A DNA stretch of 64,000 bases from the NCBI RefSeq assembly GCF_000203815.1, contig NW_004457713.1, positions 325,358 to 389,357 on the forward strand. Direction: 5' to 3'. A model generated the notes under the pieces. That model ran no database searches, was not told the DNA's origin, and worked only from the letters and a program-made list of their open reading frames with translations. Shown piece after piece: positions 19,708-44,937 of this stretch (position 1 is its first letter; each line of letters begins with the position of its first letter). Made by a program: the position numbers and the translations under genes. The DNA comes from Cavenderia fasciculata. Its lineage: Eukaryota; Evosea; Eumycetozoa; Acytosteliales; Cavenderiaceae.

Positions 19708-22700
19708 TTAGTCACTATCACAGTAATCTGAAGAGTCATCATCAGAACTACAAGAAAAGTATGCATTATCATAATTTTCCTTATTGTTTTCGTCTATCGA
19801 TGCACCTTCAATCTTGTAATTTTTAACTTTGCCTCGATCTTGGATTGAGGGTAGACTGACAACCTTTTCAAAGACAAACTCTCTTATAACTGTAGTATCG
19901 TGGATGTAGGGTTTATCTGCAGAAGTCATTTTGTGTTTATAGTTGGGATATCTCTCACCAAATCTTCTTTTTCTAATTAGTTTATAGTTTGCCATAATCG
20001 ATCCTTTGACAATAGGATTCTCTCCTTGTCTTGTTTGATAGTAGGTGTTACCGTTTGAAGTGGGTTGCTCGAGAGAGATGTGAATTCTATCTCCAGGTAT
20101 TTGTAATTGTGAAGCAGATTGAAAGAAATTGGGAATGACTTGCTCAAATCCTGCTTCACCTGATCCACGAAATGGACAGTTCCAGTGGATTCTCTTGAAT
20201 CTTTGACCTTTAAAAAGTTGGTCAATTTCTTTAGCATTGATTCCAAATAAAATCTTGACACCCTTTTTCTGTAACTGTTCAATGGGATAATTAGGGTTAT
20301 TATTGTTTTGTAATTCTGTTGCAATGATTGATTTCCCCAATCCTTCCAATTGTGAGTGTTCATCCAACAGTGATTTGGTGTATGAGAAATTCCCTTCGCC
20401 AATGATTAATCTTGATTTGTAATTTCGGTTAAATTCTTTCATATATTTTTTGTTGCCTGTTTGTTTGAATAGTTCCAATGCAACAACTCGACGTTGATGT
20501 TTATATGGAGTACTTTTTAAATACTCGTAGAATCTAATGGCTGTTTCTATCTTTAGTAGGCCACTTGTACAACGTTTAGCCTTTTCATAGAATCTTCGAG
20601 CTTGATAAATGTTGTTTAGTTTCATTGCTGATTCCATCCCGTTTATATATGTCTTGTAGGGATCTGAAACAATAACGGCGAGCTCGTGGTACAAGTTGAG
20701 TTGGGTAAAGTCATGTTTGAGTTTCAAACCCAGTTGCTCAATCTTGAAACTATTCCATTGATCGAGAGCTTTAATGACTGGCTCGAGAATAACAACGCCG
20801 CCTTGATAAAAACCAATAACCAGACCGTCAGCAAATTCTTCTAAAAGACCAATTCTGAAATGATCTTGGGTACTTTGTATCGTATCATGATTGGATTGGA
20901 TGTGTTGAAGGCGATTACCGATTGGATAGATTATTGAACCATCTGAAAGAATTGTCGTAGAACCGATCGAATGACCAACCCCAAAGTTAAAGTTGAACAA
21001 GATATCTCCTCGATCAGATATCTTCATTGAATCACCATCTCGATACACAATTCTATTGTCGTTTGTATATTTTAAATTTGTCCAATATTGGGTATTTTGT
21101 CCACAAGGTATTCTTTCTCCAGGGTTGGGACCCAACATATATATTTGATCTTTTTCCAATACAAATAAAGATGAGTCATGGGCATATTCAACCCTATCTA
21201 TATTATTCTCCAAACAGATGTTAGATTGGGTTGTTTTCAATTTTTTCGATTTAGCATCATGCAATATAATATTGCCATTACTTAAACAAAAGAACTCTGT
21301 GTCAATTCCCAACCGCTCTGTGTTCTTATCTTTTAGAGAAACCAATGAAATACTACTATAGTTATTTTGTACGTTATAGTTATTATTATAATGATGATCA
21401 TTTACATTATTATTGTTATTCATGATATTATTATTATTATAGTTTGTATTATAAATATTATTATTATTATAGTTTGTATTAATATTATTAATATAGTTGG
21501 TATTATTATTATTATAGTTTGTAATATTATTATAGTTTGTAATATTATTATAGTTTGTATTATTATTATTATTATTATTATAGTTGGTATTATAAATATT
21601 ATAGTTTGTATTATTACTATAGTTTGTAATATTTTTAAAATAATTATATTGTCTAACCACTACCTGATTTTGATTGATAAAGGTGATCCTTTCAATGGTC
21701 CCTTTATTCAAAGATATACTATCGTCCGATGATAGATGAAGAACACCAGCATTATCGCCCACGATTAATACTCCTTCGGGACTCTCTGCCATGGCTGTAA
21801 TTTGATTGGTTTGAAAGACCTGTGTTGACCAAGTGTTACTGTGGATATCAAAAGTTTCGACAGCGTTACCAATACCAAAGCTAATAGTTCCATTCAATCG
21901 TACAAGATAGCACCGGTAATTTAACGAGGGATTGTGAAGTTTCTTCCAATCTACAATTGGTGATCTTGTTACAAAAGTAATTTGTTTGTTTGTTTGATTA
22001 ATCTCTGGTTTTACAAGTCTATTCCTTAACAATATTTTAAGGCGACCAAGTTGTGAAATTGCGACGTGATTTTGATTTCTAATTGGAGGAAGTACTACTG
22101 TGAATTCATCTTGATCAGCTTTAGCCACTAAACACTTCTTTTGTTCATTAAAGAAGAAATATATTATTTTGTCACCACACATTGAAGAAATGGGCATCAA
22201 GATGACTGGTTGCAAAACAACTAATGCATTACCACAAAAACCAACAACCAAACCATCAGCCATTTCTTTTAGTTCGCTAATTGAATTGGCACCGGCGGGC
22301 GAGGATGTCATATCGGGTTTATCAATATATTGAATGTGATGAATACCTGCTTCTCGTCGATCCGTTGCATAGATTATTGAACCATCAGATAGAATTGTTG
22401 AACAATTTATACACCAAGAGTTATGCTTATTAGGTGTGTGTTGGGTCGGTTTTTCTTTTAATCTATCATATATTTCCATTCCAAATGTACCGTAGGCATA
22501 TACAATTCTATTGTTGTCTAGAGGTTTGAAAAACAATTTACCAATAGGAACATTACCAAATGGTATTCTTTCTCCCGTGTAGTCCAACAGGCATGTTTTA
22601 TCTTTTTCTTCTGATACAAATAAAGATGAGTCATGAGCATATACAACACCACCTATATTCTTTGATAAAACGGTTTCTGTTGATTCATTTAATTTAATTT

Positions 22701-23849: not shown

Positions 23850-26360
23850 TTAGTCACTATCACAGTAATCTGAAGAGTCATCATCGGTACTACAATCAAA
23901 GTAGGCATTGCCATAATGTTCTATGTTTTTTTGATCGGTCACTATACCATTTATCACATAGTTTTTATCTATTTCACCGTCTTGGATTGAAGGAATGTCA
24001 TGGTCAACCTTTTCAAATACAAACTCTCTAATAACTGAAGGTTTTAAGGATGATCCATCTTGATCAGTCATTTTATGTTCATAGTTGGGATATCTTTTAC
24101 CAAATCTTCTTTTTCGAATTAGTTTATATTTTGCCTTGATTGATCCTTTGACAATAGGATTGTCTGTTTGTCTTTCGATATAAACATAATTTTTTCTTTC
24201 TTTCCAGTAACTCTTTGATTGATCGAGAGCGATATGAATTCTATCTCCAACATTCTGTAATTGTGAAGCAGATTGAAAGAATTTTGGTACGACTTTTTTA
24301 AAATCTTCTCTGGCTGTACCTGATGTTCCACCAAAAGGACAGTTCCATTGGATTCTTTTGTATTTTTGATCTGTAAATCTTTTTCCAATTACTTGGCCAT
24401 CAACTTCAAACATAATATTCACACCTTTTTTTTCTAATTCTTCAATGGTTCCCAAAATAATTTTGTTTTTGAGTTCAGACTTTTTGATTAATTCTGTTGC
24501 AATGATTGATTTCGCTAATCCTTCCAATTGTGAGTGTTCTTCCAACAGTGATTTGGTGTATGAGAAATTTCCTTCACCAATGATTAATCTTGATTTATAG
24601 GTTGAGTTGAATTCTTTCAGATACTTTTCTTCTTTTGTGAGGGCATACAGTTCCAGTGCGACCACTCTTCTTTGTTGTTTATATGGAGTACTTTTTAGAT
24701 GCTGGTAGAATCTTTCAGCTGCTTCTTGCTTAAAAAGTGGTAGCACATTTTTAGCTTTTTCATAGAATCTTCGAGCTTTATAAATTTTGTTTAACTTGAT
24801 TGCAGCCTCCATCCCCCTCATAAATACCAGGTATTTATCAGGACTATTGCCTTGTAATGCGACGAGTTCGTCATACAAATGAAGTTGGGTAGGGTCATAC
24901 TTGAGTTGGAGATTTAGTTGGTCTTTCTTGAAATTATTATCAATGTTTGGATCCCAAGCTTCAATGTCTGGTTCGAAAATAACTATACCTCCTCCATAAT
25001 TAAAACCAATAACCAAACCATCAACCGTTTCTTCTAATATTCGGATGCTATATTCTTGGGCAGATGAGGATGTCATTTTATCTAATTGAATATATTGGAT
25101 GTGATGAATACCTGCTCCTTGTTGATTTGTTGCATAGATAATTGAACCATCCGATAGAATTGTTGAACAATTGATAAACCATTCTTTATGTTTTTTGGGG
25201 TTGTGTGTCCATGTAGACTTTTCTCCTGAAATCCTCATTACGGATTTTTCTTTAAACTCTCTATACGCAACTCTATTGTTGTCTATAGATTTTAAATGTA
25301 TTGATATTGCTCGATCTTCCCATTTATCTATCCACCCAAAAGATGAGATTGTTTCTCCATTGTAAGACAAAATGAATGTTTTTTTGCCTTTCAATACCAA
25401 TAAGGATGAGTCATGGCCATATAAAACACCGTCTACATTTTCTTCAAAGGCTTTTTCCAATTTGAATTCTTTGTCCACTTTGTGCAAAGTCTTATCTTTT
25501 TGAATTATAATTTGTCCATTACCAAGGCAAAAGAATTCATTGGCTTCAACGTGCCCAGTTAATTTCATTGGCTTAAGAGAAATCAATGAAATGATGTTTT
25601 CTTGTTTCACTAGTACTTCATTTGGATTTTTAAATGTGATCCTTTGAACTGGGCCCTCCAAAGCTATGGATATACCCTTTTCTGGGATATGAATGACACC
25701 ATTGTCATCTCCAACTATTAATAAGCCATCGGGACTCTCTGCCATGGCTGTAATTTGATTGGTTTGAAATGATTGAATTGACCATGTATCATTGTGAATA
25801 TCTAAAGTTTTGACAGTATTTCCAACACCAAAACTAATAGTTCCATTTGATCGTACCAGGTAGCAATCACTCGAAATTCCAGCTGGGGGGTTTTCGGGGT
25901 TCAGTATCTCGTAGGTACTCAGTATCTTCCAAGATTCAACTTGTCTTCCTGTTCCAAAAGTAATTGTTTTGTTTGTTTTATCGATTAAAGGCTTTACAAG
26001 TCTATTTCTAAGCAACATTCGAAGGCGACAAGCTTGTGAAAGAGCGACATGATTTTGATTTCTAATTGGAGGAAGTACTACTGTGAATTCAACTTGGTCA
26101 ACTTTACCAACTTCACCATCTTTACCAACTTTAGCCACCAAACTCTTCTTTTGTTCATTAAAAAAGAACTCTACTCTTTTATCACCGCACATTGTAGATA
26201 TGATACTAGTAGAGGTACCACCACTAAATGATGACTTTGACTCTTCTTGCTCTAATCCCTCACCAATCCTTCCCTCGGTACTGCAGTGGAGATCTTTGAC
26301 TTTGCTAGCAATTGGTGAACCAGTTGCTACTTTCTTTTCAAAGCTTTCTTTCTCATTCAT
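23850..26360 (-). CDS. Single propeller-like / BMT5-like methyltransferase fusion (836 aa)
   Basis: An intronless paralog of the 1322-aa gene, 173 bp upstream on the same strand. Order: short N-terminus, one propeller-like unit (about 55-445, opening CGDKRVEFFFNEQKKSLVAK), helical hinge (about 470-580, MEAAIKLNKIYKARRFYEKAK), and BMT5-like domain (from about 588: IIGEGNFSYTKSLLEEH, SIIATELIKK, WNCPFGGTSG, FFQSASQL, IVKGSIKAKYKLIRKRRFG). It ends in the same acidic tail DDDSSDYCDSD. Compared with its neighbour it lacks the second propeller. The duplication was therefore either a gain inside the long gene or a loss here. The bases just upstream of its ATG form the left edge of the 8-kb tandem duplication that carries the polyketide synthases. 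The start at 26360 is the first ATG (MNEKES). Confidence 0.75.
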   Translation of the reverse strand: MNEKESFEKKVATGSPIASKVKDLHCSTEGRIGEGLEQEESKSSFSGGTSTSIISTMCGDKRVEFFFNEQKKSLVAKVGKDGEVGKVDQVEFTVVLPPIRNQNHVALSQACRLRMLLRNRLVKPLIDKTNKTITFGTGRQVESWKILSTYEILNPENPPAGISSDCYLVRSNGTISFGVGNTVKTLDIHNDTWSIQSFQTNQITAMAESPDGLLIVGDDNGVIHIPEKGISIALEGPVQRITFKNPNEVLVKQENIISLISLKPMKLTGHVEANEFFCLGNGQIIIQKDKTLHKVDKEFKLEKAFEENVDGVLYGHDSSLLVLKGKKTFILSYNGETISSFGWIDKWEDRAISIHLKSIDNNRVAYREFKEKSVMRISGEKSTWTHNPKKHKEWFINCSTILSDGSIIYATNQQGAGIHHIQYIQLDKMTSSSAQEYSIRILEETVDGLVIGFNYGGGIVIFEPDIEAWDPNIDNNFKKDQLNLQLKYDPTQLHLYDELVALQGNSPDKYLVFMRGMEAAIKLNKIYKARRFYEKAKNVLPLFKQEAAERFYQHLKSTPYKQQRRVVALELYALTKEEKYLKEFNSTYKSRLIIGEGNFSYTKSLLEEHSQLEGLAKSIIATELIKKSELKNKIILGTIEELEKKGVNIMFEVDGQVIGKRFTDQKYKRIQWNCPFGGTSGTAREDFKKVVPKFFQSASQLQNVGDRIHIALDQSKSYWKERKNYVYIERQTDNPIVKGSIKAKYKLIRKRRFGKRYPNYEHKMTDQDGSSLKPSVIREFVFEKVDHDIPSIQDGEIDKNYVINGIVTDQKNIEHYGNAYFDCSTDDDSSDYCDSD

Positions 26361-26514
26361 CTCTTTATATTTCTATCTCTGATTATTTATGCTGTCCTTA
26401 AAATTAACAGCATCAATCTAGCAAAATAGAGTCTAGCAAGAAAAAAAAAAAAAAAAAAAGAGAATATCGAAGATATTTTTTTTCATTTAATATTAATTTA
26501 TTTAATTATAATAT

Positions 26515-29500
26515 TTATTTCCTATTTGAAACAGCTTGAATGATTGAATTAAGTGACCCATTTGAAATTTGAGAATGGTTAATGATTTGAGTTTTACCAA
26601 ATTCTTGTTCCAACCATGTTTTAATTTGAATTGAAACCATTGAATCGACACCGTAATCTTTTAGTTTGGTGTCTGGTGACAAGAGTGATTTCTCAATAGA
26701 TAGTGCTTCTGCGATATGATCGATAATCATATTCTCTATACTATTTCCACCATCTTGTGCATTATTCTTTTTCTTGGCTGTCACTCCGAGATCCTCGTCG
26801 AGTAAATGTCCAAAAGTGTGTTGAAGGAATTGATGTGACCCAATAAATCGTTTGGTCAAGAAACTAGCACACATGATTCGAGTGATTGGTGTTGTCTTGT
26901 TGGCAAATGATGATCTGAGTACACCATAGATACAAGACAATGGTAGAAAGCTCATACCTAATCCTTGTAGAGTTGCATTTGAACCTTGGTTGACAACAGC
27001 TCTTCCAGTACTACCAATTGATCCCCATGCAACTGATGTGGCCTCTAACCCAATTGATCTTCTGTACATTGCAAGACTATCCAAGAATAAATTAGCAACA
27101 CCATAACTTGTACTTTCTCGAACCAGGTATTGTCCAACCGATGAAAATAAATGGAAATGATTTAATTTCCATCCCAACTCTTCGAATAGGTTGTGAAGGT
27201 TCCAAGCACCAACTGCCTTTGCCGACATTGCCACTGCATGTTCTCCCAAACTGATTTTCTCTGATACATAGGTTACTGCGCAATGTATTACCACGCTAAC
27301 TGGTTCCATACGACTATTGGCTTGGTACAATGATTGAATGGATGATTTGAGAGAGTTATAATGACCAAGATCACATTGTAAATAATGGAGTTTTACATGT
27401 GGATAATTTGTTTTGATGATATGATCTAACCATTGCATTTCAAACTTTGGTTTAGAAAATGACAAAACAATAATATTGGTCAATTTAGGAGCATGTTTGA
27501 GACAATAATAAATACATTCGACAGAGATACCAGATTGACCAGTGACAAGCATTGTACCTTGGCAACCATCAAGATTGTATGATAATCTTTCAATTGCTTT
27601 TGGTTGTTTGACTAGAACTGGATAGAGATCTCGGTCGATGTTTTGATAGTCTAGAACAATCTTTCCAAAATGTTTTCTTGATTTCATGAGGTCCATTGCT
27701 TTGTGAATATCTTGACCTGGGAATGCAATGATTGGAGTCAATGGCATTCCCTCTTTGACAACAAGATCAGTGACAGTGCAGAGAATTGGGTATTGACGTT
27801 TGGTCATATGAATGGTAATGTAACTTCTTTGATACTTTAACAATTGCATATCCATGTTGTCAAGGTTGGAGAATTGATCGATTGACAAATCAATCAGAGT
27901 CCCAGTTTGTGAGAGTGCTTGGAAATTCTGTTGCATTTGAGAGTGGTCGAGTGTATTGAGAATATATTCGACACCTTTACCATCGGTCAATTCGAGAATA
28001 CTGTCTACAAAATTAGATGATGGAAGAATAGCAGTGATAAAGCTACCATACGTGTCTTTGAGATACTGTATCTTTTCCTGTCCACTTCCAATCGTTGCAA
28101 ATATCTTTCCACGGTGACCTTTATGTTTCAAGAGATTGAGTGCTGCCAACCCTACACCACCCGATGCACTGTGCAAAAGGACTGAATCATCAGGATCGAT
28201 ATTCCCCTTTTTGTAGAGACCATAGTAGGAAGTAGTGCCGACAGTGACCATTGACGCAGCTTCAACAAATGACAATTCTTTTGGTTTGGGGATAACAGAA
28301 ACCTCATCAGAGACTACATGAGAAGCAAGAGAACCAGGTGCAATACCAACTACCTCGTCACCAACTTTGAATCGTGTCACATTTGGACCAACTCGAGTAA
28401 CAATACCAGCACAGTCCTGTCCAAATGGTGGGTCGTAAACATCACCAGTTGGGAATATTTCTTGTGGTACACCTCCATCCAACATTAAACAATCTTTAAA
28501 GTTTAATGATGATGCCATCACCCTTATCTCTATTTGTCCATCTAAAAGAGTCTCTTGTTTGGTACGTGCACGTAAATGATATTTACCATCCTTTTCAAAT
28601 TTAATCTTGGTTTCTTCTTGATCTGTAACCGTCATTCTATCTTTTTCCAATGCCATTGAATTCTTTGAAAGTAATACTCTTTCAACCATTACTTGAATAG
28701 TACTATTTGAATCATCTTTACATTCCAATTTATAATCCAATTCACCAAGTTTTGAATAATTTGATACTTTTAAAATTTGGTCAAGTGTAACACGATCGAT
28801 TGATTCCTTGTCCAAAGTCATGACCATTGTACCAAATTCAAAATTATTACCACATTTATACCCAAATTCTCTTGCAATCGAAGTCAAACATTCATTAAAG
28901 AATCCAGATCGAAGTGCAATTAATTTAACTGGTAACTGTTCCTGTCTAATGACAAGGTGAAGATGAAGATACTGTGTTGATTTTGGTGTTAAACTATCAA
29001 TAGTCATTTCTTCCATTGATTCCAAATAAATGATTGTAACCTTTTTATCACTATTCTTTTCCATTGCAATCGAGTCTAATAATAATTGATGTTTATCAGG
29101 ATTCATTAAATCATCTGATGAAAATAATCCAATACTCTTTGTCATTGAACCGGCTTGTTGAATTAATTTTGTTGTAAATAATTTAGTTGTCTCTGAAGAA
29201 GTGGAGGATGAAGGTGTTATAAACAATAAATGATCAATTGGTTCACGTTCCATTTCAAATATTGATTCCTTTTCTCCAACTATACATTCTTGATTTGAAA
29301 ATATAATTTTAAATCTTGAATCATCCAACAATCTTAATCTATGATCATTATCATCCAATATATCTTCTTCTTTTTCTTCTTGTTGATTTCTAACAATCAT
29401 TAATTTACCACAAGGATTTAACAATTGATAAAATTGATTTGATAAATGATGATGATTATCGGTTGATAGAATTAAATCATAACTTGATTCTAAAAATCCT

Positions 29501-32500
29501 TGGTCGCTGATTGAATCCTGTATGTTGACATCTTTGATTATTTTAAATTTGATAATTGGATGATTGAGCATAAATTCTGGCATTAAACTATCCAAATCAC
29601 CATCTTGATCAATTATAGTATAATCGATCGCACCAGCCAAAACATTTTCTTCTTCTTTTCCATCTGCCAAACACTTGTCAATTAATTGAAGGAAATTAAA
29701 TGAAAATAATTCATTTGATAATTGATAATCCAATATTCTAATAACCTTGTGTGACTTTAAACCATTTTGAATAAATGATTCCAACATTGAATGACTATCT
29801 ATATTATTATTATTATCTATATTATCTAAATTATTATAGTTGATGATGTTTGGAGATTGTTTTGGTTGAATAAAAGATTGTTTGATATGTTGAGATGGAT
29901 CTTTGGCTTGATGAGTTTTTAGTACTTTGGTAAGTGAACGTAATGCAACTTCACCAATAATGGCAATGATATTACCATCTTGATCAATGACATCATAGGA
30001 TACGGCACATTCATTTCCTCTTTGTGATATGCATTGACCTGGACGAGAAATGCAATACAATGAATCTACCTGTCCAGTCTTTGGTATGTTGTTGGCAAAT
30101 ACTCGAACTGAACGTACACGTTCACCGACCATTTCACAATTGGGAGGTTCACCTTGGAAATTAACAAGACCACCATGTAGAATACAATCTAGTACCGATG
30201 CATTGAGAAGGGTATGATCTGCTTCAAAGCGATCTTTTGGTTTGACATCAAGCTCGGTCATGATACCACGATCCTTGTTGAAATCGATCCTTTGTACACG
30301 TTTGAATGATCCACTGTAGGGGAATCCAACTTTTATCAACTTTTCATAGACTTCAGTGTGAGTCATTGTAGCAACATTGTAAGTCTCTTTACGTAGTTGT
30401 TCGACACTTGGATAAGCAGGTTGAGGAGGTGTTGATGCATTACGAACCGATATTCTACCAACTGCTGATTTGATCCATTTCTGAGCCTGGTTATCAAAGT
30501 ATTCACCTTTGAATAGATACTCTGTCGCCGAACAACTAGTAAATGTGGTCTTTAGTCTCGATTGAACACCTTCTTTTAAAAAGAATGCATTGATAAAATT
30601 CAATCTATGAATTATGATATCTTTGCCTGGGAATGCCAAGAGAATGCACTCCATGTATCCAGCTCCTGGGAACAAGTATTTTCCTTTGACTTTGTGCCCT
30701 TTGAGACCTTGATACAATGGTCTGTTGATATCAATGCACGATTCATAAACATGAACCGATGGATTTTCAGCGATACCCAACAGAGTGGTTGAAACACCTT
30801 CCAAATGATGATAACTGATTCTTGAATTTAACATTTACATTATTAAACCAAAGTTGTGAAAGACAAGATTGAATTGATTCAACTTCATCTTTTCTTCTAT
30901 TTAATGGTGATAATATTGTTGTTGTTGTCAGATTCTTTAAATAAAATGATAATGTTGAATGTGGTGCAATTTCTAAAAATAAAAGATTATCGTCACTATT
31001 ATTATTATTTATAATATTATTAATAGTTTGTTGAAATAATACAGGTAATCTTAAATTATCATAAATGTATTGTGCATTGAAAGAAGAGGATGATGTAATT
31101 TGGTTTGAAGTTGTTGTTGAAAAGTATTTAATCTTTGGTTGTTCTGATTGATACTCTATCTGATTGTCCAAATGTTTAAAGATGTAATCTTTTGTTTGTT
31201 CTTGTGTTGGGGTAGTATCTTTATCATTTGATAAATATAAAGAAATGTTCAGTAAACAAGATCTATTTGATCAAGTCCATGTTGCATGTTACAATTCAGC
31301 TGAATCAATTGTATTGGCAGGAAATGAAGATCAACTCAAATCTATTGATCAACAATTGAAAAATGACAATATATTTAGTGCATTCCTTGGTACACCTTGT
31401 GCATTCCACAAATAGATCTTGTTTACTGAACATTTCTTTATATTTATCAAATGATAAAGATACTGATAACATTCTACCACTTCCAATTGTTTGATTTTGA
31501 GCAACACTACGATGATAAACAATTCTACAAGCTTCTTCCAATGATATTAATCCTGAACACCATGCTCCTGTTACATCTCCAAAACTAAAAAAAATTAAAA
31601 AAATAATAAATAAATTAATATAATATTCCAAATTGATTCTAGTATATGTCTTTTCTTTTCTTTATCTTACCTATGACCAACAACAATTGAAGGAATAATA
31701 CCAAAATGTTTATATAAATTGACCAAAGCAACTTGAATGATAAATGTTGAAGGTTGAGCAAGGATTGGATGATGAATCATTTTACTATCTGCATTTGTCT
31801 GTTCTCTCAGTCTACCAATAATAGAGTATTGATAGTATTGTGATAATAGTTTATCTATATGATCTATAGATTCACGGAATACTTGATAATGGTTGTAAAG
31901 TTTTTCACCCATTCCACTCCATTGTGCACCTTGACCACAGAATACCATCACAACTGACGTCTCCTTTTTAGTTCCCAATTGAGACATGTTTGATGCAAAT
32001 GATGTTTCTTTTTCAAATGTACGACTATCTTTGAATGAATCCCAATCATTGGCAACGATAACTTTTTGACAAACTGGATGAGTTGTTTTTGATATCTGTG
32101 AACAAACAAAATCTTCAAATGACATTTTCTCTTTATATTGATCAACATTGTCTCTAATCTTTTCAATATATTTATCAATTGATTTTTTACTATTTGTTGA
32201 AAATGGTATCAAGTATTCATCTAAAAAAAAAAAAATTAATATTAATGAAATTATTATTATTAATTTGTTTTTTTTAACATACTTGAATGAATTGTTTGAT
32301 CTTGCTTTTCTTCTTCTTTCTTTTTATACTCTTCAATAATTAAATGAGAATTACTACCAGTAATACCAAAAGAATTAATACCCATTCGGATTGGTTTATC
32401 TAGGTCAGTTGGGATTGGTTCATTTTCCAATACAATTTTAATTTCACCACCGAGTAAATCAATCTTTGGATTGAGTTTGTTGAAATGAATATTCTTGATC

Positions 32501-33627
32501 AACATTCTATTCTTTACCATCATTGCACATTTGATGAGTGATGCTACACCTGCTGTACTTTCAGTGTGTCCAATGTTACCTTTGATCGATCCGACTCTGA
32601 GTGGTTCCTCTTTTGAATGTGATCCTCTAAAAACATTGGCGATGCCAGCCATTTCAAGTGGATCTCCAGTTGGTGTTCCAGTACCATGACATTCGACATA
32701 GTAAATGTCAGATGGAGATACACCAGTCTTTCTCAGTGCTTCAAGAGTATTAACTTGTTGAGCAGCCGATGATGGTGCAGATGGGGATGACTTTTCAAAA
32801 TTACCATCTACATTGCAATTACCACCTTTGATGATACAATAAATATCATCATTGTCGGCAATAGCTTTGGAGAGACGTTTGAGAACGACGACACCAACAC
32901 CTTCACCACGACAATATCCGTCGGCATCCTCGTCAAATGGAGCACAACGACCCTTTTTACCAAGCATATTCATCATGGTAAAGGCAGCCGAATTGGTTGG
33001 TTCAAAAATACCATTGGTACCTCCGACGATCGAGATATCACTATCACCCTTGCGAATCGTGTCTACTCCCATCATGACAGCCACCAAAGAAGACGAACAG
33101 GCAGTATCGAGGGCAAGTGATTCACCTCTAAAGTCAAAGAGGTACGATGCCTTGATGGCAGTGTCTGACCGACCAAAGCGAGAGGCATGGGTCATGGTTG
33201 TCAAGTTTCTCATCTGCATATTGGTGACAGCATCAAACATTTGACCTAAAAACACCGATGTTTTGCTCCCTCTGATCGAGGCAGGGTCAATATGTGCGTC
33301 TTCCAAAGCTTCCCAGAGAACCTGTAAATAGAGGCGTACCTGAGGATCAACCACTGCGGCGTCTTTGGGTAGAATACCAAAGAACGAGTTATCAAAATGC
33401 ATCCATTCATTCCAATCAATCAGTGCAGCCTTGTCAGATGCGATAAAGCCTTGATCGGCATATGTCTTGCTCCAACGTTCAGTAGGGACCGGCACGAATG
33501 CATTCAACCCTCCCAACAACTGTTCATAAAACTCTTGACCCGTTTTAGATCCACCAGGTAATCTACATCCAATACCAACCAATGCTACACCATCATTATC
33601 AATATCGCCATCTAATAAATGTTCCAT
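26515..33627 (-). pseudogene. Polyketide synthase A (KS-AT-DH-MT-ER-KR-ACP), disrupted in AT
   Basis: Exons 32283-33627, 31671-32220 and 26515-31584, with introns at the same places as copy B. KS: VALVGIGCRLPGG, DTACSSSLVAV (active Cys), VECHGTGTPTGDP and GNIGHTES (active His). AT: FCGQGAQWSGMG and GHSFGD (active Ser). DH: GHKVKGKYLFPGAGY (HxxxGxxxxP) and SVLDCILHGG. A methyltransferase-like region with YDLILST and NPCGKLMIV looks degenerate. ER: LLHSASGGVGLAALNLL. KR: FSS...TSYGVAN. ACP: GVDSMVSIQ (phosphopantetheine Ser). There is no thioesterase or chalcone-synthase end. Two lesions break it. A 139-bp stretch of AT is inverted between 56-bp inverted arms (31214-31464). About 100 bp are deleted near 30785, which removes roughly 34 residues between AT and DH and shifts frame. 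The DH-to-ACP part remains one open frame of 1439 codons, so the lesions are probably recent. Confidence 0.85.
31214..31464. repeat. Perfect 56-bp inverted repeat around an inverted AT-domain segment
   Basis: Arms 31214-31269 and 31409-31464 are exact reverse complements. The 139 bp between them (31270-31408) match copy B's AT region at about 39149-39287 in reverse orientation: on the + strand they encode FDQVHVACYNSAESIVLAG and FLGTPCAFH. The arms encode SFDKYKEMFSKQDLF. Copy B contains this segment once and in the correct orientation. This is the signature of a template-switch or fold-back mutation. Confidence 0.92.
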
Positions 33628-34352
33628 TCTTCTAAAAAAAAAAAAAAAAAAGTAAAAGTAAAAGTAAAAGTAATGTTGTTTATAATTAATATTAAAGTAA
33701 TAATAAGATTAATTGTTAATATTGAAGGCTCTTTTTGATTTATAGAAGAAAAATAAAAGACAATACGTACATAGTACTAGTACAACAACAACCATGTCAT
33801 GTCATCTTGAAGGAATATTTGTTGTAAAATTACTCTTACACAGACAGACAGAGAGAGACAGATAGACAGATAGACAGATGTAGGGCACCTTATTAATTAA
33901 TCATCTATTAAGTAACCATCTATTCAATACATAATATCAATAGACTGTAAAATGAGATTTGTTTTAAAATAGTAACAGAGTAAGTAAGTAAAGTTTGACA
34001 GGTACGGTACCTACATACCTACATTATTATTAATTATTATTATTATTACGCGTCATAATGATAATATACAAAGCTGCTCAAATCTCCTTTGATTTAGTAC
34101 TTGTTACTTTATACTCATAATAATTAATGTATCTATCTATATCATTATTAGTTGGTTTGTAAAAAACTAGAGATGAGATGAAGTTCATCTCTCGCAGTCT
34201 TTGCTGACTAATTGCTTTTTTTGTTTTTATATATAATATTATAGTATGATGTGGAAGGAGTGTTGAAGTCTATCTTTTTTTTCTTTTATTCAAAGGTTTT
34301 GCCAATTGTCTTGGTTAAACTCTGAATCTGGGTATCCAGGTCTAAAAGTGAT
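33628..34352. other. Upstream region of PKS A with duplication scar at its end
   Basis: AT-rich with a poly-T/A run just upstream of the PKS start, a GACAGA/GATAGACA repeat (about 33840-33878) and TTA runs. The last 60 bp (34290-34352) hold the copied tail of the gene at 42472-43118. No functional gene is seen. Confidence 0.6.
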
Positions 34353-34373: not shown

Positions 34374-34446
34374 TTATTATTTCTATATCTTATTATTATT
34401 TTTAATTCATCAGATAATTTATTCAACTTTAATTATATTATAATAT

Positions 34447-37400
34447 TTATTTCTTATTTGAAACAGCTTGGATGATTGAATTAAGTGACCCATTTGAAAT
34501 TTGAGAATGATTAATGATTTGAGTCTTACCAAATTCAAGTTCAATCCAAGATTTAATTTGAATTGAAACCATTGAATCGACACCGTAATCTTTGAGTTTG
34601 GTGTCTGGTGACAAGAGTGATTTCTCAATAGACAGTGCTTCTGCAATATGATCTACAATCATATTCTCTATACTATTTCCATCTTGTGCATTATTCTTTT
34701 TCTTGGCACTGACTCCTAGATCCTCTTCTAGTAAATGTCCAAATGTGTGTTGGAGGAATGGATGTGAACCAACAAATCGTTTGGTCATGAAACAAGCACA
34801 AATGGCTCGAGTGATTGGTGTTGTCTGGTTGGCAAATGATGATCTGAGTACACCATAGATACTTGACAATGGAAGCAAGCTCATACCTAATCCTTGTAGA
34901 GTTGCATTTGAACCTTGGTTCACAACAGCTCTTCCAGTACTACCAATTGATCCCCATGCAATTGATGTGGCCTCTAACCCAATTGATCTTCTGTACATTG
35001 CAAGACTATCCAAGAATAAATTAGCAACACCATAACTTGTACTTCCTCTGACGAGATATTGTCCAACCGATGAAAATAAATGGAAATGATTTAATTTCCA
35101 TCCCAACTCTTCGAATAGGTTGTGAAGGTTCCAAGCACCAACCGATTTGGCTGACAATGCTTCTGCATGTGCTCCCAATTCTATTTCCTCTGATACATAT
35201 GCTGCGGCACAATGTATTACCACGCTAACTGGTTCCATACGACTATTGGCTTGGTACAATGATTGAATGGATGATTTGAGAGAGTTATAATGACCAAGAT
35301 CACATTGTAAATAATGGAGTTTTACATGTGGATAGTTTGTTTGGATGATATGATCTAACCATTGCATTTCAAACTTTGGTTTAGAAAATGAGAAAACAAT
35401 AATGTTGGTCAATTTAGGAGAATGTTTGAGACAGTAGTGGATACATTCGACAGAGATACCAGATTGACCAGTTACAAGCATTGTACCTTGGCAACCATCA
35501 AGATTGTATGATAATCTTTCAATTGCTTTTGGTTGTTTGACTAGAACTGGATAGAGATCTCGGTCGATGTTTTGATAGTCTAGAACAATCTTTCCAAAAT
35601 GTTTTCTTGATTTCATGAGGTCCATTGCTTTGTGAATATCTTGACCTGGGAATGCAATGATTGGAGTCAACGGCATACCCTCTTTGACAATAAGATCGAC
35701 GATATCAGAGAGACCTGGAGAGAAACGGGTCATGTGAATAGCAATATAACTTCTTTGATACTTTAACGATTGGGTGTCCATGTTGTCCAAGTTGGAGAAT
35801 TGATCGATTGACAGATCAATCAGTGTTCCAGTTTCAGAGAGAGCTTGGAAATTCTGTTGCATTTGAGAGTGGTCGAGTGTATTGAGAATGTATTCGACAC
35901 CCTTTTCATCGGTCAATTCGAGAATATCTCTTGCAAAGTGTGATGATGGAAGGATAGCAGTGATAAAGCTACCATAGGTATCTTTGAGATACTGTACCTT
36001 TTCCTGTCCACTTCCAATCGTTGCGAAAATCTTTCCACGGTGACCTTTATGTTTCAAGAAATTGAGTGCTGCCAACCCGACACCACCCGATGCACTGTGC
36101 AAGAGGATCGAGTCGTCAGGATTGATATTACCCTTTTTGTAAAGACTGTAGTAGCTGGTGATACCAACCGTGACAATTGATGCAGCTTCAACAAACGACA
36201 ACTCTTTTGGTTTGAATACAAGGGGACCTTGCTCAGATATGACATGAGAAGTATGAGAGCCAGGGACAACACCAAATACCTCGTCACCAACTTTGAATCG
36301 TGTCACATTTGGACCAACTCGCGTAATAATACCAGCACAGTCTTGTCCAAATGGTGGGTCGTAAACATCACCAGTTGGGAATATTTCTTGTGGTACACCT
36401 CCATCCAACATTAAACAATCTTTAAAGTTTAATGATGATGCCATCACCCTTATCTCTACATGTCCATCTTGAAGTGTCTCTTGTCTTGCACGTAAATGAT
36501 ATTTACCATCCTTTTCAAATTTAATCTTGGTTTCTTTTTGATCGGTGACTGTCATTCTATTTTTCTCCAATGCAAATGAGTCATTTGAATCCAATACTCT
36601 TTCAACCATTACTTGAATATTACTACTGTCATCTGTACACTCCAATTTATAATCCAATTCACCAAGTTTTGAATAATTTGATACTTTTAAAATTTGGTCA
36701 AGTGTAACACGATCGATTGATTCCTTGTCCAAAGTAATAACCATTGTACCAAATTCAAAACGGCCATTACCACATCTATACCCAAATTCTCTTGCAATCG
36801 AAGTCAAACATTCATTAAAGAATCCAGTTCTTAGAGCAATTAATTTAACTGGTAATTCCTCTTGTCTGATGATTTGGTGAAGATGAAGATACTGACTTGA
36901 TTTTGGTGTTATACTCTCAACAGTCAACTCTTCCAATGACTCCAAATAAATGATTGTAACCTTTTTATCACTATTCTTTTCCATCGATATTGAATCTAAT
37001 AATAATTGATATTTATCAGGATTCATTAAATCATCTGATGAAAATATTTCAATACTCTTTGTAATTGTCTGAGATTGTTGAATTAATTTTGTTGTAAATA
37101 ATTTAGTTGTCTCTGATGAAGAAGTAGATGAAGGTGTTATAAACAATAAATGGTCAATGGGTTCACGTTCCATTTCAAATATTGATTCTTTACAAATTAA
37201 TTTATCTTCTTCTTTTTCTCCCTCTTGTTGATTATTATTAATAAATAATAAATTACCACAAGGATTTAATAATCTATAAAATTGATTTGATAAATGATTG
37301 AACTGACTAGTTGATAGAATTAAATCATAACTTGATTCCAAGAAACCTTGTTCAATGATTCCATCCTGCATGTTGATATCTTTGATTATTTTAAAACTGA

Positions 37401-40400
37401 TAATTGGATGATTGAGAGCAAATTCCTCTGGAATCAACTTATCCAAATCACCGTCATGATCAATGATAGTATAATCAATCATTCCAATTACTACACCTTC
37501 TTTTTCTTTACTATTGGCCAACCATTGGTCAATCAATTGAAGGAAATTAAATGTAAACAATTCATTTGACATTTGACAATCCAATATTCTAATAACCTTG
37601 TGCGACCGTATGCCAGATTGAATAAATGATTCCAACATTGAATGACTATCATTATCATTATGATTATTCATATTAATGATTTGAGGTGATTGTTTTGGTT
37701 GAATAAATGATTCTTTGATGTGTTGAGATGGATCTTTGGCTGATATGTTTTTACTACTTTGGTAAGTGAACACATAGCAACTTTACCAATAAATGCAATC
37801 ACATTACCATCTTGATCAATGACATCATAGGAAGCCATACATTCATTTCCTCGCTGTGTCATGGTACCACGAGAGATACAATACAATGAGGTGGCTTGTC
37901 CAACCTTTGGTATGTTATTGGCATATACGTGAACTGAACGCACACGATCAGCAACCATTTCACAATTAGGTGCTTCTCCTTGGAAATTAACAATACCTCC
38001 ATGAAGAATACAATCTAGTACCGATGAATTGAGAATGGTATTCTCCTCTTCAAAACGATCTTTTGGTTTGACATCAACCTCGGTCATGATACCACGATCC
38101 TTGTTGAAATCGATTCTTTGTACACGTTTGAATGATCCAGCATAGGGAAGACCAACCTTTATCAACTTTTCATAGACTTCATTGTGAGTCATCGTGGCAA
38201 CATTGTACTTTTCTTTACGTAGTTGTTCGACGCTTGGATAAGCATGTTGAGGAGGTGACGATGATGGAGTTTGAACTGATATTCTACCAACTGCCGATTT
38301 GATCCATTTCTGAGCTTGATTATCAAAGTATTCACCTTTGAATGTATACTCTGTCGATGAAGAGCTGGTAAATGTTGTTCTTAGTCTTGATTGAACTCCT
38401 TCTTTTAAAAAGAATGCATTGATAAAATTCAATCTATGAATGATAATATCTTTGCCTGGGAATGCCAATAGAATTGGTTCCATGTATCCAGTTCCTGGGA
38501 ACAAGTATTTTCCTTTTACTCGATGTCCCTTTAAATATTGATATGATGGTCTGTTGATATCAATACCTGCTTCATAAACATGAACCGATGGGTTTTCAGC
38601 GATACCTAAAAGATTGGTTGAAATACCTTCCAAACGAATCTTTCTATACTCTGCTTGTTCATCTAAAAAGTATTCAGTATCCCATTGATATCTTGGTAAA
38701 TGTCTTGTTCTATTCTTCCAATCACTGTCACTTGATGATAATTGATTCTTGAATGCAACATTTACATTATTAAACCAAAGTTGTGAAAGACAAGATTGAA
38801 TTGATTCAACCTCATCCTTTTTTCTATTTAATGGTGATAATACTGTTGTTGAGTTGGTTGTCAAATTCTTTAAATAAAATGATAATGTTGAATGTGGTGC
38901 AATTTCTAAAAATAAAAGATTATCACCTGCTTGTTGACTAGCCACAATATTATTAATAGTTTGTTCAAATAATACTGGTAATCTTAAATTATCATAAATG
39001 TATTGTGCATTGAAAGAAGAGGATGATGTAATTTGGTTTGAAGTTGTTGTTGAAAAGTATTTAATCTTTGGTTGTTCTGATTGATACTCTATCTGGTTGT
39101 CCAAATGTTTAAAGATGTAATCCTTTGTTTGTTCTTGTGTTGGAGTATGGAATGCACAAGGTGTACCAAGGAATGCACTAAATATATTATCATTTTTCAA
39201 TTGTTGATCAATAGATTTTAATTGATCTTCATTTCCTGCCAATACAATTGATTCAGCTGAATTGTAACATGCAACATGGACTTGATCAAATAGATCTTGT
39301 TTACTGAACATTTCTTTATATTTATCAAATGATAAAGATACTGATAACATTCTACCACTTCCAATTGTTTGATTTTGAGCAACACTACGATGATAAACAA
39401 TTCTACAAGCTTCTTCCAATGATATTAATCCTGAACACCATGCTCCTGTTACATCTCCAAAACTAAAAAGAAAAATTAAAATGAATAAATAATAATTTTA
39501 ATTATATATTCTTTTCTTTATCTTACCTATGACCAACAACAGTTGAAGGAATAATACCAAAATGTTTATACAACTTTACCAAAGCAACTTGAATGATAAA
39601 TGTTGAAGGTTGAGCAAGGATTGGATGATGAATCATTTTACTATCTGCATTTGTCTGTTCTCTCAGTCTACCAATAATAGAGTATTGATAGTATTGTGAT
39701 AATAATTGATCTACATGATCGACAGATTCACGGAATACTTGATAATGGTTGTAAAGTTTTTCACCCATTCCACTCCATTGCGCACCTTGACCACAGAATA
39801 CCATCACAACTGACGTCTCCTTTTTAGTACCCAATTGTGAAATATTTGATGCAAATGATGTTTCTTTTTCAAATGTACGGACACTTCCATCCTTGAATGA
39901 ATCCCAATCATTGGCAACCAATACTCGTTGACAAACTGGGTGAGTTGTTTTTGATTGTGTTTGCATCGAAACAAAATCTTCAAATGACATTTTCTCTTTA
40001 TATTGATCAACATTGTCTCTAATCTTTTCAATATATTTATCAATTGATTTTTTACTATTTGTTGAAAATGGTATCAAGTATTCATCTAAAAAAAAAATTA
40101 ATATTAATTAAATTGTTTGAAAAAAATATTATTATTTATAATAATAATAACATACTTGAATGAATTGTTTGATCTTGCTTTGTTTCTTCTTTTTCTTCTT
40201 TCTTTTTATACTCTTCAATAATTAAATGAGAATTACTACCAGTAATACCAAAAGAATTAATACCCATTCGGATTGGTTTATCTAGGTCAGTTGGGATTGG
40301 TTCATTTTCCAATACAATTTTAATTTCACCACCGAGTAGATCAATCTTTGGATTGAGTTTGTTGAAATGAATATTCTTGATCAACATTCTATTCTTTACC

Positions 40401-41527
40401 ATCATTGCACATTTGATGAGTGATGCTACACCTGCTGTACTTTCAGTGTGTCCAATGTTACCTTTGATCGATCCGACTCTGAGTGGTTCCTCTTTTGAAT
40501 GTGATCCTCTAAAAACATTGGCGATACCAGCCATTTCAAGTGGATCACCAGTGGGTGTTCCAGTACCATGACATTCGACATAGTAAATGTCAGATGGAGA
40601 TACACCAGCCTTATTCAATGCTTCAAGAGTATTGACTTGTTGAGCGGCTGGCGATGGTGCAGTGGGTGATGATTTTTCAAAATTACCATCAACGTTGCAA
40701 TTACCACCTTTGATGATACAATAAATATCGTCATTGTCGGCAATAGCTTTGGAGAGACGTTTGAGCACGACCACACCAACACCTTCACCACGACAATACC
40801 CATCGGCATCCTCGTCAAATGGAGCACAACGACCCTTTTTGCCAAGCATACTCATCATAGTAAAGGCGGCAGAGTTTGTCGGTTCAAAAATACCATTGGT
40901 ACCTCCGACGATCGAGATATCACTCTCTCCTTTGCGAATGGTGTCTACACCCATCAATACGGCCACCAAAGACGATGAACAGGCAGTGTCGACGGCAATG
41001 GACTCTCCTCTGAAATCATAGTGGTACGATGCCTTGATTGCAGTGTCTGAACGACCGTATCTCGAGGCATGAGTCATGGTTGCAAAGTTTCTAGTCTGCA
41101 TATTGGTGACAGCATCAAACATTTGACCTAAAAACACCGATGTTTTGCTCCCTCTGATCGAGGCAGGGTCAATGTGTGCATCTTCCAATGCTTCCCACAC
41201 GACATGCAAAAAGAGACGTACTTGGGGATCAACCATGGCAGCATCCTTGGGTAGAATACCAAAGAACGAGTTATCAAAATGCATCCACTCGTTCCAATCG
41301 ACAAAGGCAGCCTTGTCAGATGCAATCAGTCCTTGGTCGGCATATGTCTTGCTCCAACGTTCTGGAGTCACCGACACGAATGCATTCAACCCTCCCAACA
41401 ACTGTTCATAGAATTCTTGACCGGTTCTTGATCCACCCGGTAATCTACATCCAATACCAACCAATGCTACTCCATCATCACTATAATCATTATCAATATG
41501 ATTATCTAATAATCTAGAATGTTCCAT
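34447..41527 (-). CDS. Polyketide synthase B (KS-AT-DH-MT-ER-KR-ACP), one base missing
   Basis: Exons 40156-41527, 39527-40085 and 34447-39462, coding for about 2315 residues if one base is restored. KS (about 15-435): DTACSSSLVAV, VECHGTGTPTGDP, KGNIGHTES. AT (about 555-850): CGQGAQWSGMG, VVGHSFGDVTGAW. DH (about 930-1180): LKGHRVKGKYLFPGTGY and SVLDCILHGG. MT-like region (about 1230-1400), weak. ER (about 1560-1850): GQDCAGI and LLHSASGGVGLAALN. KR (about 1950-2200): catalytic Ser-Tyr-Asn pattern FSS...TSYGVAN. ACP (about 2240-2310): DYGVDSMVSIQ. The single break lies at about 37741, where copy A has CATCAAGCC and this copy ATCAGCC. Whether it is real or a base-call error cannot be told here. 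Dictyostelids use such synthases for developmental and defensive polyketides. The highly reducing domain set predicts a largely saturated, possibly methylated chain. Confidence 0.85.
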
Positions 41528-42471
41528 TTTGTTTAAAAAAAAAAAAAAAAAGAAAGTTGTTTGTTGTATTAATTATAGTAATAATAATTATAAGGTAGAT
41601 ATAAATATAAGGGAGATATAAATATATATATTATTATTATTATGAAAAGGGATGAATTTAATTGGATCAATTATGATTCATATTGCTCTTATATATAGAA
41701 AAAACAACTTTTAAGTTAAACTATACGTACGTACTACAACTATAACAACAAAAGGAATCATTCCTTCCTTCCCACCACCTTAGTTGTAAGATGACTCCAC
41801 GTGTATCACACTCAAACCTATCCATCCACACAAGCTGTGCAGGTTAATTCGTACAGCACCTATATAAATTAATACTACCTCTCATTTATAATACATAAAG
41901 ATTGTTAGATCAATCGATGACTGAAATATCAATGCAAAGTAAGAACATACTTTTAAAGTCTAACTTTTACATACATACATACTATACATACTAAATATAC
42001 TATATATACTATATACTATATATACTATATATACTATACATACTACTATCTGTCCTTAATTATTTTAAAAGTCATATTAATAATAATAATAATAATGAGA
42101 GTATAGTTCTGCTTCAGCACACTCTTCGCAAAAGATGATCTTCTCTTTCAACCAATAAGATATCAGCTGCAACTACTAATGATTAAAAATTCATATTTGA
42201 AGGGAGATACAAGATAAAATAGATTTTAGATATCATTAATTACATATATATGACCGCATACTAATTTTAACAACACACAAAAAATAGTATTGAGTCTTAT
42301 TAAATTCTAAAATCCGACACATTTAAATCTATGTTGAATGAATCTCCCACACAAAAGTATATGATATGAAGAATGAGGATAATATTTATTAAATAATAAT
42401 AATAACAAAGTAGTATTGAATACTATCTGAGGTGAATTAAAAAGTGTATACTTTTAAAAAAAAATCATTGA
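41528..42471. other. PKS B upstream region
   Basis: AT-rich. It includes TATACTATATA repeats (about 41975-42050) and GATATAAATATAAG repeats near 41600. No gene is seen. It presumably contains the promoter of PKS B on its left side. Confidence 0.45.
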
Positions 42472-44073: not shown

Positions 44074-44937
44074 ATGGAACCAACAATCAAAAAACAAAAG
44101 ATAGAAGAATATATTGGATCTTCTACAATATGTGAATCAGATGCAAAAACTACTACTACTACTACTACTACTACTCCTCCTCCTCATCTAAATACAAATA
44201 ATAAAAAAAAGAATTTCAAAATATTACTCACTGCAGAAGGAAATTTCTCCTACACCAAATCACTTTTAGATAGATACTCACATTTGAAAGGATTTGGTGA
44301 GTCTATCACAGCCACTGAATACACCAAGCAATTAGACGCCAGCATTATTCCAGTCACCAAACAGTTAGAGGAAAAGGGTGTAAAGATTATGCTTGGGGTT
44401 GATGGCCGAGAAATAGGTCAGATTTTTAAAGGTGAAAGATTCAACATCATCCAATGCAATTGTCCTTTTGGTGGGTCGTCCGAAAGAGATAGAGATGAAT
44501 TTAAAACATTCACACTAGAATTCTTTCAATCTGCTTCAGAGCTACAAAAGCCTGGAGATAGAATTCATTTCGCTCTCGATCAATCAAAAGGTTACTGGAA
44601 AGAAAGAAAAACTTTTATATATATCGAAAGACAAAGGGAGAATCCTATTGTAAAAGGATCGATTAATGCAAACTATAAACTAATCCGAAAAAGAAGATTT
44701 GGTGAGCGATATCCTAAATATAGACATAAAAAGACCTATAGTAACGAATCTTTTCTAAAAGATACTAGCGTTATAAGAGAGTTTGTATTTGAAAAGGTTG
44801 ACCATCTCGTTCTACTAACAGATTATGATGATGATGTTAGTGGTCATCAAATTAAATATAAAGATAAAAATAACAAAGATTTAGATAATGCCTACTTTTT
44901 TTGTAGTACTGATGATGAAGACAGTGATGATGATTGA
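44074..44937 (+). CDS. Stand-alone BMT5-like Rossmann methyltransferase domain protein (287 aa)
   Basis: The frame begins MEPTIKKQKIEEYIG, with a Thr/Pro run (about 27-38). The rest is one BMT5-like (DUF2431) domain: ILLTAEGNFSYTKSLLDRY (SAM loop), ESITATEYTK, VKIMLGVDGREIG, IIQCNCPFGGSS (site of the usual N-x-P-H motif), FFQSASELQKPGDRIHFALDQ and IVKGSINANYKLIRKRRFGERYP. The end, AYFFCSTDDEDSDDD, matches the acidic tails of the two fusion proteins at 19708 and 23850. The three are therefore one family, and this member lacks the propeller and helical hinge. It may represent the ancestral form, or a fragment that keeps only the catalytic half. Opposite strand to its relatives, 18 kb away. No intron. 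Confidence 0.8.
   Translation: MEPTIKKQKIEEYIGSSTICESDAKTTTTTTTTTPPPHLNTNNKKKNFKILLTAEGNFSYTKSLLDRYSHLKGFGESITATEYTKQLDASIIPVTKQLEEKGVKIMLGVDGREIGQIFKGERFNIIQCNCPFGGSSERDRDEFKTFTLEFFQSASELQKPGDRIHFALDQSKGYWKERKTFIYIERQRENPIVKGSINANYKLIRKRRFGERYPKYRHKKTYSNESFLKDTSVIREFVFEKVDHLVLLTDYDDDVSGHQIKYKDKNNKDLDNAYFFCSTDDEDSDDD

Follow-up and report, generated by a model that had tools for sequence, protein, structure and literature searches.

An inverted segment with one duplicated edge in the acyltransferase of a tandem polyketide synthase gene of Cavenderia fasciculata: a possible young micro-inversion

Two adjoining polyketide synthase genes and a rearranged acyltransferase

The DNA analysed here, a 64-kb stretch of the Cavenderia fasciculata genome (hereafter the window), contains two adjoining polyketide synthase (PKS) genes, both on the minus strand: copy A, at about 26.5-33.6 kb, and copy B, at about 34.4-41.5 kb. 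Both are type I synthases by Pfam, with KS, AT, DH, ER, KR, and ACP found in each copy in separate open frames. The exon that carries the N-terminal part of the acyltransferase (AT) in copy A ends in GH and the split Ser codon of the GHSFG motif, and an intron follows. The window has a G+C content of about 33%, as does a 200-kb control stretch (C14:1-200000). Searches were made against 31.0 Mb in 21 contigs, and the DNA search scores best candidates only, a limit that applies to the genome-wide DNA matches below.

The pair has further features. Between DH and ER, copy A has about 26 residues more than copy B, in frame (A 29273-29356 against B 37192-37198). The PKS pair is also flanked on either side by members of a second repeated family (19708-20640, 23850-24815, and 44220-44805), about 73-76% identical in DNA, one of them in the opposite orientation.

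Copies A and B are collinear up to A 31214/B 39147 and again from A 31409/B 39287. The sequence between these points is turned around in copy A. Read on the opposite strand, A 31214-31408 matches B 39342-39148 at 192 of 195 positions (98.5%), and all 64 encoded residues are identical (Table 1). The turned segment and the normally oriented sequence beside it form a pair of arms of 56 nt each, 100% complementary, with a spacer of 139 nt; the corresponding 56 bp (B 39287-39342) occur once in B and twice in A, at both ends of the inversion. A preliminary description had 139 bp reversed with the adjoining 56 bp on both sides, and both the complementarity of the arms and the alignment to copy B bear this out exactly. 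At the left join, base 31214 is compatible with both sides, and at most 1 base was lost. The net change is a 195-bp inversion together with a 56-bp duplication, which makes copy A 55 bp longer than B, and not 56 bp, because one base is common to both sides at the left join.

Table 1. Positions in the window of the features of copy A, and of the copy B counterpart of the inverted segment.
Feature	Position	Strand	Details
Copy A downstream open frame, DH-ER-KR-ACP	26515..30834	-	1439 aa; Pfam
98-bp deletion, copy A	30805..30806	.	Lacks B 38635-38732; shifts the frame; join without a common base
Left junction	31213..31214	.	B 39146/39147, then complement of B 39342; one base (A at 31214) fits both sides
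Left 56-bp arm, inverted-orientation duplicate	31214..31269	+	Perfect complement of 31409-31464
Inverted 195-bp segment, 64 complete AT codons	31214..31408	+ (gene is -)	Reverse complement of B 39148-39342
Inverted 139-bp core	31270..31408	+	Differs from B at 31335, 31337, 31367
First in-frame stop of AT frame	31305..31307	-	33 codons read from inverted segment
Right junction	31408..31409	.	Complement of B 39148, then B 39287; joined without a common base
Right 56-bp arm, normal gene orientation	31409..31464	-	56/56 identical to B 39287-39342
Copy A AT N-terminal exon, approximate ends	31670..32206	-	Pfam PF00698 profile positions 2-90
Copy A KS exon	32260..33627	-	455-aa open frame; Pfam PF00109/PF02801
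Copy B counterpart of inverted segment, AT uninterrupted	39148..39342	-	Alignment, tblastn, genome search

The arrangement is peculiar to copy A. A 301-bp query from the AT of copy B gave 16 matches among the best candidates in the whole genome: B itself, 12 other loci, and copy A in three pieces. B and each of the 12 other loci match without a break, and in a single orientation, over the part that copy A has inverted. Likewise, in a tblastn search with the AT of B, copy A alone has residues 53-117 of the downstream exon on the strand opposite to their flanks; B and the seven further PKS loci examined in this way give an uninterrupted AT. The alignments thus place the segment of copy A, and of copy A alone, in inverted orientation relative to the apparent ancestral order. 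A scan for inverted repeats with perfect arms of at least 24 bp and spacers of up to 2 kb returned the copy A pair as its sole match in the window. The inverted repeat is not a product of chance.

On the control stretch, the same scan gave 82 overlapping matches, 81 of which are runs of period-3 microsatellites. The remaining one is a perfect 41-bp AT-rich inverted repeat (C14 12-52 and 289-329, with a 236-bp spacer) at the extreme end of a 3.5-Mb contig.

Copy B had been taken as an intact paralog. This holds for its AT, which is uninterrupted and in one orientation, but the gene carries a 1-base frameshift near 37.74 kb (within 37730-37751) that separates the DH part from the remainder of the synthase and is either real or, possibly, a sequencing error. 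Copy A has a second lesion, a 98-bp deletion. Nine other loci, among best candidates, match most of the 98-bp stretch; the match of copy A begins immediately past it, and 3 of the 12 other loci have no listed match in this search. The two lesions of copy A lie 408 bp apart, and their joins have 0-1 bp of homology.

Source and age of the inverted sequence

None of the three differences between the inverted core and copy B (31335, 31337, and 31367) changes a residue in the AT frame; the first two share one codon and may be one event. Seven outgroup loci were used to polarise them. At 31335 the base of A is present in all seven; at 31337 it is present in six of seven, and the base of B in none. 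Position 31367 is not diagnostic, with the base of B in five outgroup loci and that of A in two. The core is therefore the sequence of A itself, turned in place and not copied from B, since it keeps the outgroup bases at two of the three sites, where B is derived.

This comparison bears on the idea that an inverted copy of B was inserted into A by conversion in trans. The two copies are nearly identical in this region (98.5% in the segment and 100% over 246 bp), as such an exchange would have it, yet the outgroup bases at 31335 and 31337 speak against B as the donor, and a second A core was not found among the best candidates in the 21 contigs. We consider conversion from B highly improbable. 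For the same reason, the suggestion that the structure is an assembly mix-up between the two near-identical copies is disfavoured for the core, which has the bases of A.

Several observations bear on age. The arms show 0 differences over 56 bp, an outcome with a chance of 0.6% at a divergence of about 9%. Dating by arm identity is weak when taken alone, because A and B are themselves locally identical, with no difference over 246 bp (B 39222-39467), and because their identity is a mosaic shaped, it seems, by gene conversion.

Along the whole alignment (A 26480-33720 against B 34405-41600), identity per 100-column block ranges from 77 to 100%, a pattern that suggests past gene conversion between the tandem copies.

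A second line of evidence comes from constraint on the protein sequence. With changes polarised by one outgroup sequence per part, the DH-ER-KR-ACP region has 40 amino-acid changes unique to A and 37 unique to B over 1352 aligned residues; the N-terminal AT exon has 2 and 4, and the C-terminal AT part 3 and 3, respectively. The dN/dS between A and B is 0.10 for KS, 0.26 and 0.36 for the N- and C-terminal AT parts, and 0.29 and 0.30 downstream (the latter 0.30 over 1097 codons). We found no small lesions in copy A in the frames examined. Long-term decay of copy A as a pseudogene is not supported by the 40 against 37 unique changes; the lack of excess amino-acid change in A means that its lesions are either recent or artefactual. 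The inversion looks younger than most of the divergence between A and B. The earlier proposal of a young event thus stands, on the identity of the arms and the lack of excess change in A. Its companion, continued homogenisation, is compatible with the local identity of A and B over 246 bp but is not needed to explain identical arms.

Mechanisms of inversion and the possibility of an artefact

Our preferred explanation, which we hold tentatively, is that copy A underwent a real, young, one-off micro-inversion by way of one near-blunt and one staggered break. Two breaks would have occurred in the AT exon, one near-blunt at about B 39147/39148 and one with a 56-nt stagger (39287-39342). Fill-in at the staggered break would then have left the 56 bp on both of its ends, and the 195-bp fragment would have been rejoined backwards with 1-bp and 0-bp homology. 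The 98-bp deletion may stem from the same episode. We prefer staggered breaks because a single step explains both the near-exact left joint and the single duplicated edge.

There is precedent for such an outcome. According to a study of Drosophila inversions, staggered breaks and their repair duplicate one or both edges of an inversion, in inverted orientation, and D. subobscura inversions with a duplicate from one breakpoint only are attributed there to staggered double-strand breaks (PMC5080602). In the preliminary description, duplication of the arm was held to be beyond a simple inversion; that argument fails, since a staggered break does exactly this (PMC5080602). The copy A segment resembles these inversions, such as O8 of D. 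subobscura, in that the sequence of one breakpoint is duplicated, in inverted orientation, at both ends. It differs from the chromosomal inversions of Drosophila described in that study in being 195 bp long, lying within one exon, and being known from one genome assembly.

A second comparison is with microinversions between human and chimpanzee, of which 59 are reported, with inverted segments of 17-33 nt and arms of 3-75 nt; the inversions there are attributed to the action of the repeats (PMC8755829). A small inverted segment between inverted arms is common to those cases and to copy A; the arm pair of copy A, unlike theirs as described, is a product and not a driver, because B and the 12 other matched loci have no second arm.

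The earlier note had attributed the structure to a replication template switch or a fold-back event, and here the order of the switch points is informative. In a four-point switch between strands, synthesis would leave at B 39147, copy from 39342 back to 39148, and resume at 39287, and three fragments fit this model: one ending at 39147, the reverse complement of 39342-39148, and one starting from 39287. An out-and-back jump of this kind accounts for an inversion with one inverted duplication and, as a study of template-switch mutations has it, often yields perfect inverted repeats (PMC7954356); the joints, with 0-1 bp of homology, also suit it. The copy A segment is thus like the short-range template-switch mutations described there in being a local reverse-complement copy with a perfect inverted repeat. 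Its switch-point order, 1-3-4-2 or the mirror 3-1-2-4, with points 1 and 3 adjacent, is unlike that of the typical mutations in the same study, where the majority patterns, 1-4-3-2 and 3-2-1-4, give a single inverted repeat in another layout (PMC7954356). Points 1 and 3 would moreover have to adjoin by coincidence, and the switch would have to be inter-strand, with point 2 ahead of point 1 in both directions. By the rule given in that source, a fold-back switch on the same strand is excluded, the landing point being ahead of the departure point in either direction (PMC7954356). The inter-strand half of the earlier attribution therefore fits the product and the fold-back half does not, and we regard a template switch as an unlikely origin. 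The product by itself does not discriminate between inter-strand template switching and break repair.

An artefact of assembly, finishing, or cloning is a serious rival to staggered-break inversion, and we take it as distinctly possible. A piece of about 195 bp derived from A, with a 56-bp overlap with the right-hand contig, would have been set backwards, or one unstable AT-rich clone or PCR product would have been rearranged. Near-exact abutment on one side and a 56-bp overlap on the other are what a flipped small piece is expected to give, and the same explanation would perhaps cover the loss of the 98 bp as well. The two lesions fall within or on the border of the part of the alignment that is hardest to assemble, with 91-100% identity between A and B in each 100-column block, and copy A is as constrained as B yet has two gross lesions, 408 bp from each other, with 0-1 bp joins. 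The 1-base frameshift in copy B may itself be a sequencing error, and the genome was presumably the one sequenced with dideoxy and 454 reads (PMC5282741).

Other evidence speaks against an artefact. The piece shares only 1 bp and 0 bp at its joints, so an overlap assembler would presumably not join it. There is no N in the 64-kb window or in the 200-kb control, and the assembly was, again presumably, aided by primer walking and a fosmid map (PMC5282741). Nor did the best candidates in the 21 contigs include a normally oriented A core elsewhere or, as a sign of misassembly, a stray A-like version of the 98 bp that copy A lacks. Finally, the further 200 kb of control sequence hold no similar inverted repeat apart from the AT-rich pair at the contig end and the microsatellites. 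We infer that the inversion is present in the living genome, with breaks, and not a polymerase jump, as its cause.

Consequences for copy A and its neighbour

The AT frame of copy A runs from GHSFG through the normal arm into the inverted segment and stops after 33 foreign codons, and the left junction falls within the codon that encodes the His of FHTP in B. This residue is presumably the catalytic His of the AT. The premature stop and the inverted codons would disable the AT of copy A, and we infer that the AT, and hence the entire synthase, is dead. Splicing out the inverted codons is unlikely to leave a working AT, because they sit between GHSFG and the presumed catalytic His.

The arms raise the question of reversibility. 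It had been proposed that recombination between them flips the core and restores the AT, so that copy A would be a switchable gene. Perfect inverted arms do flank a coding core, as such a switch would need. By arithmetic on the coordinates, however, a flip of the core leaves the length unchanged, with A still 55 bp longer than B, which is not a multiple of 3, and the frameshifting 98-bp deletion at the other lesion would remain. On both counts a flip would restore neither the AT nor the synthase, which defeats the proposal, and a single orientation of the core is present in the assembly. A gene switch through the arms appears very unlikely.

A further idea concerns RNA. The transcript strand of 31200-31480 folds into a perfect stem at -106.9 kcal/mol; 200 shuffles of the same interval gave a mean of -52.3 (sd 4.1), and none was as stable. 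The stem of copy A is 56 bp long and identical in sequence to the AT of copy B. If transcribed, the hairpin could conceivably feed RNA interference against B and so make copy A a trans-acting silencer of its neighbour, a reading of the sequence that we consider very doubtful. Under our preferred explanation, the inverted structure has no function of its own.

The genome in which such interference would take place has two loci that each encode a pair of RNase III domains, as in Dicer-like proteins (C8:87345-88126 and C21:2855767-2856558).

The likeliest account of copy A is an ordinary young micro-inversion that disables its acyltransferase, or else an artefact that takes the same form. Among the literature matches listed for dictyostelid or Cavenderia fasciculata polyketide synthase, pseudogene, and inversion, none showed anything on this locus. 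Neither outcome, real or artefact, would greatly surprise a specialist. Should the structure be an artefact, models of PKS genes from this assembly will have to be backed by reads. Should it be real, it offers a clean and very young protist case of how a small inverted segment comes to have an inverted duplicate of one edge, the ancestral state and the identity of the turned copy being settled by an almost identical paralog and some twelve other members of the family; one of the two PKS copies would then have been freshly lost.
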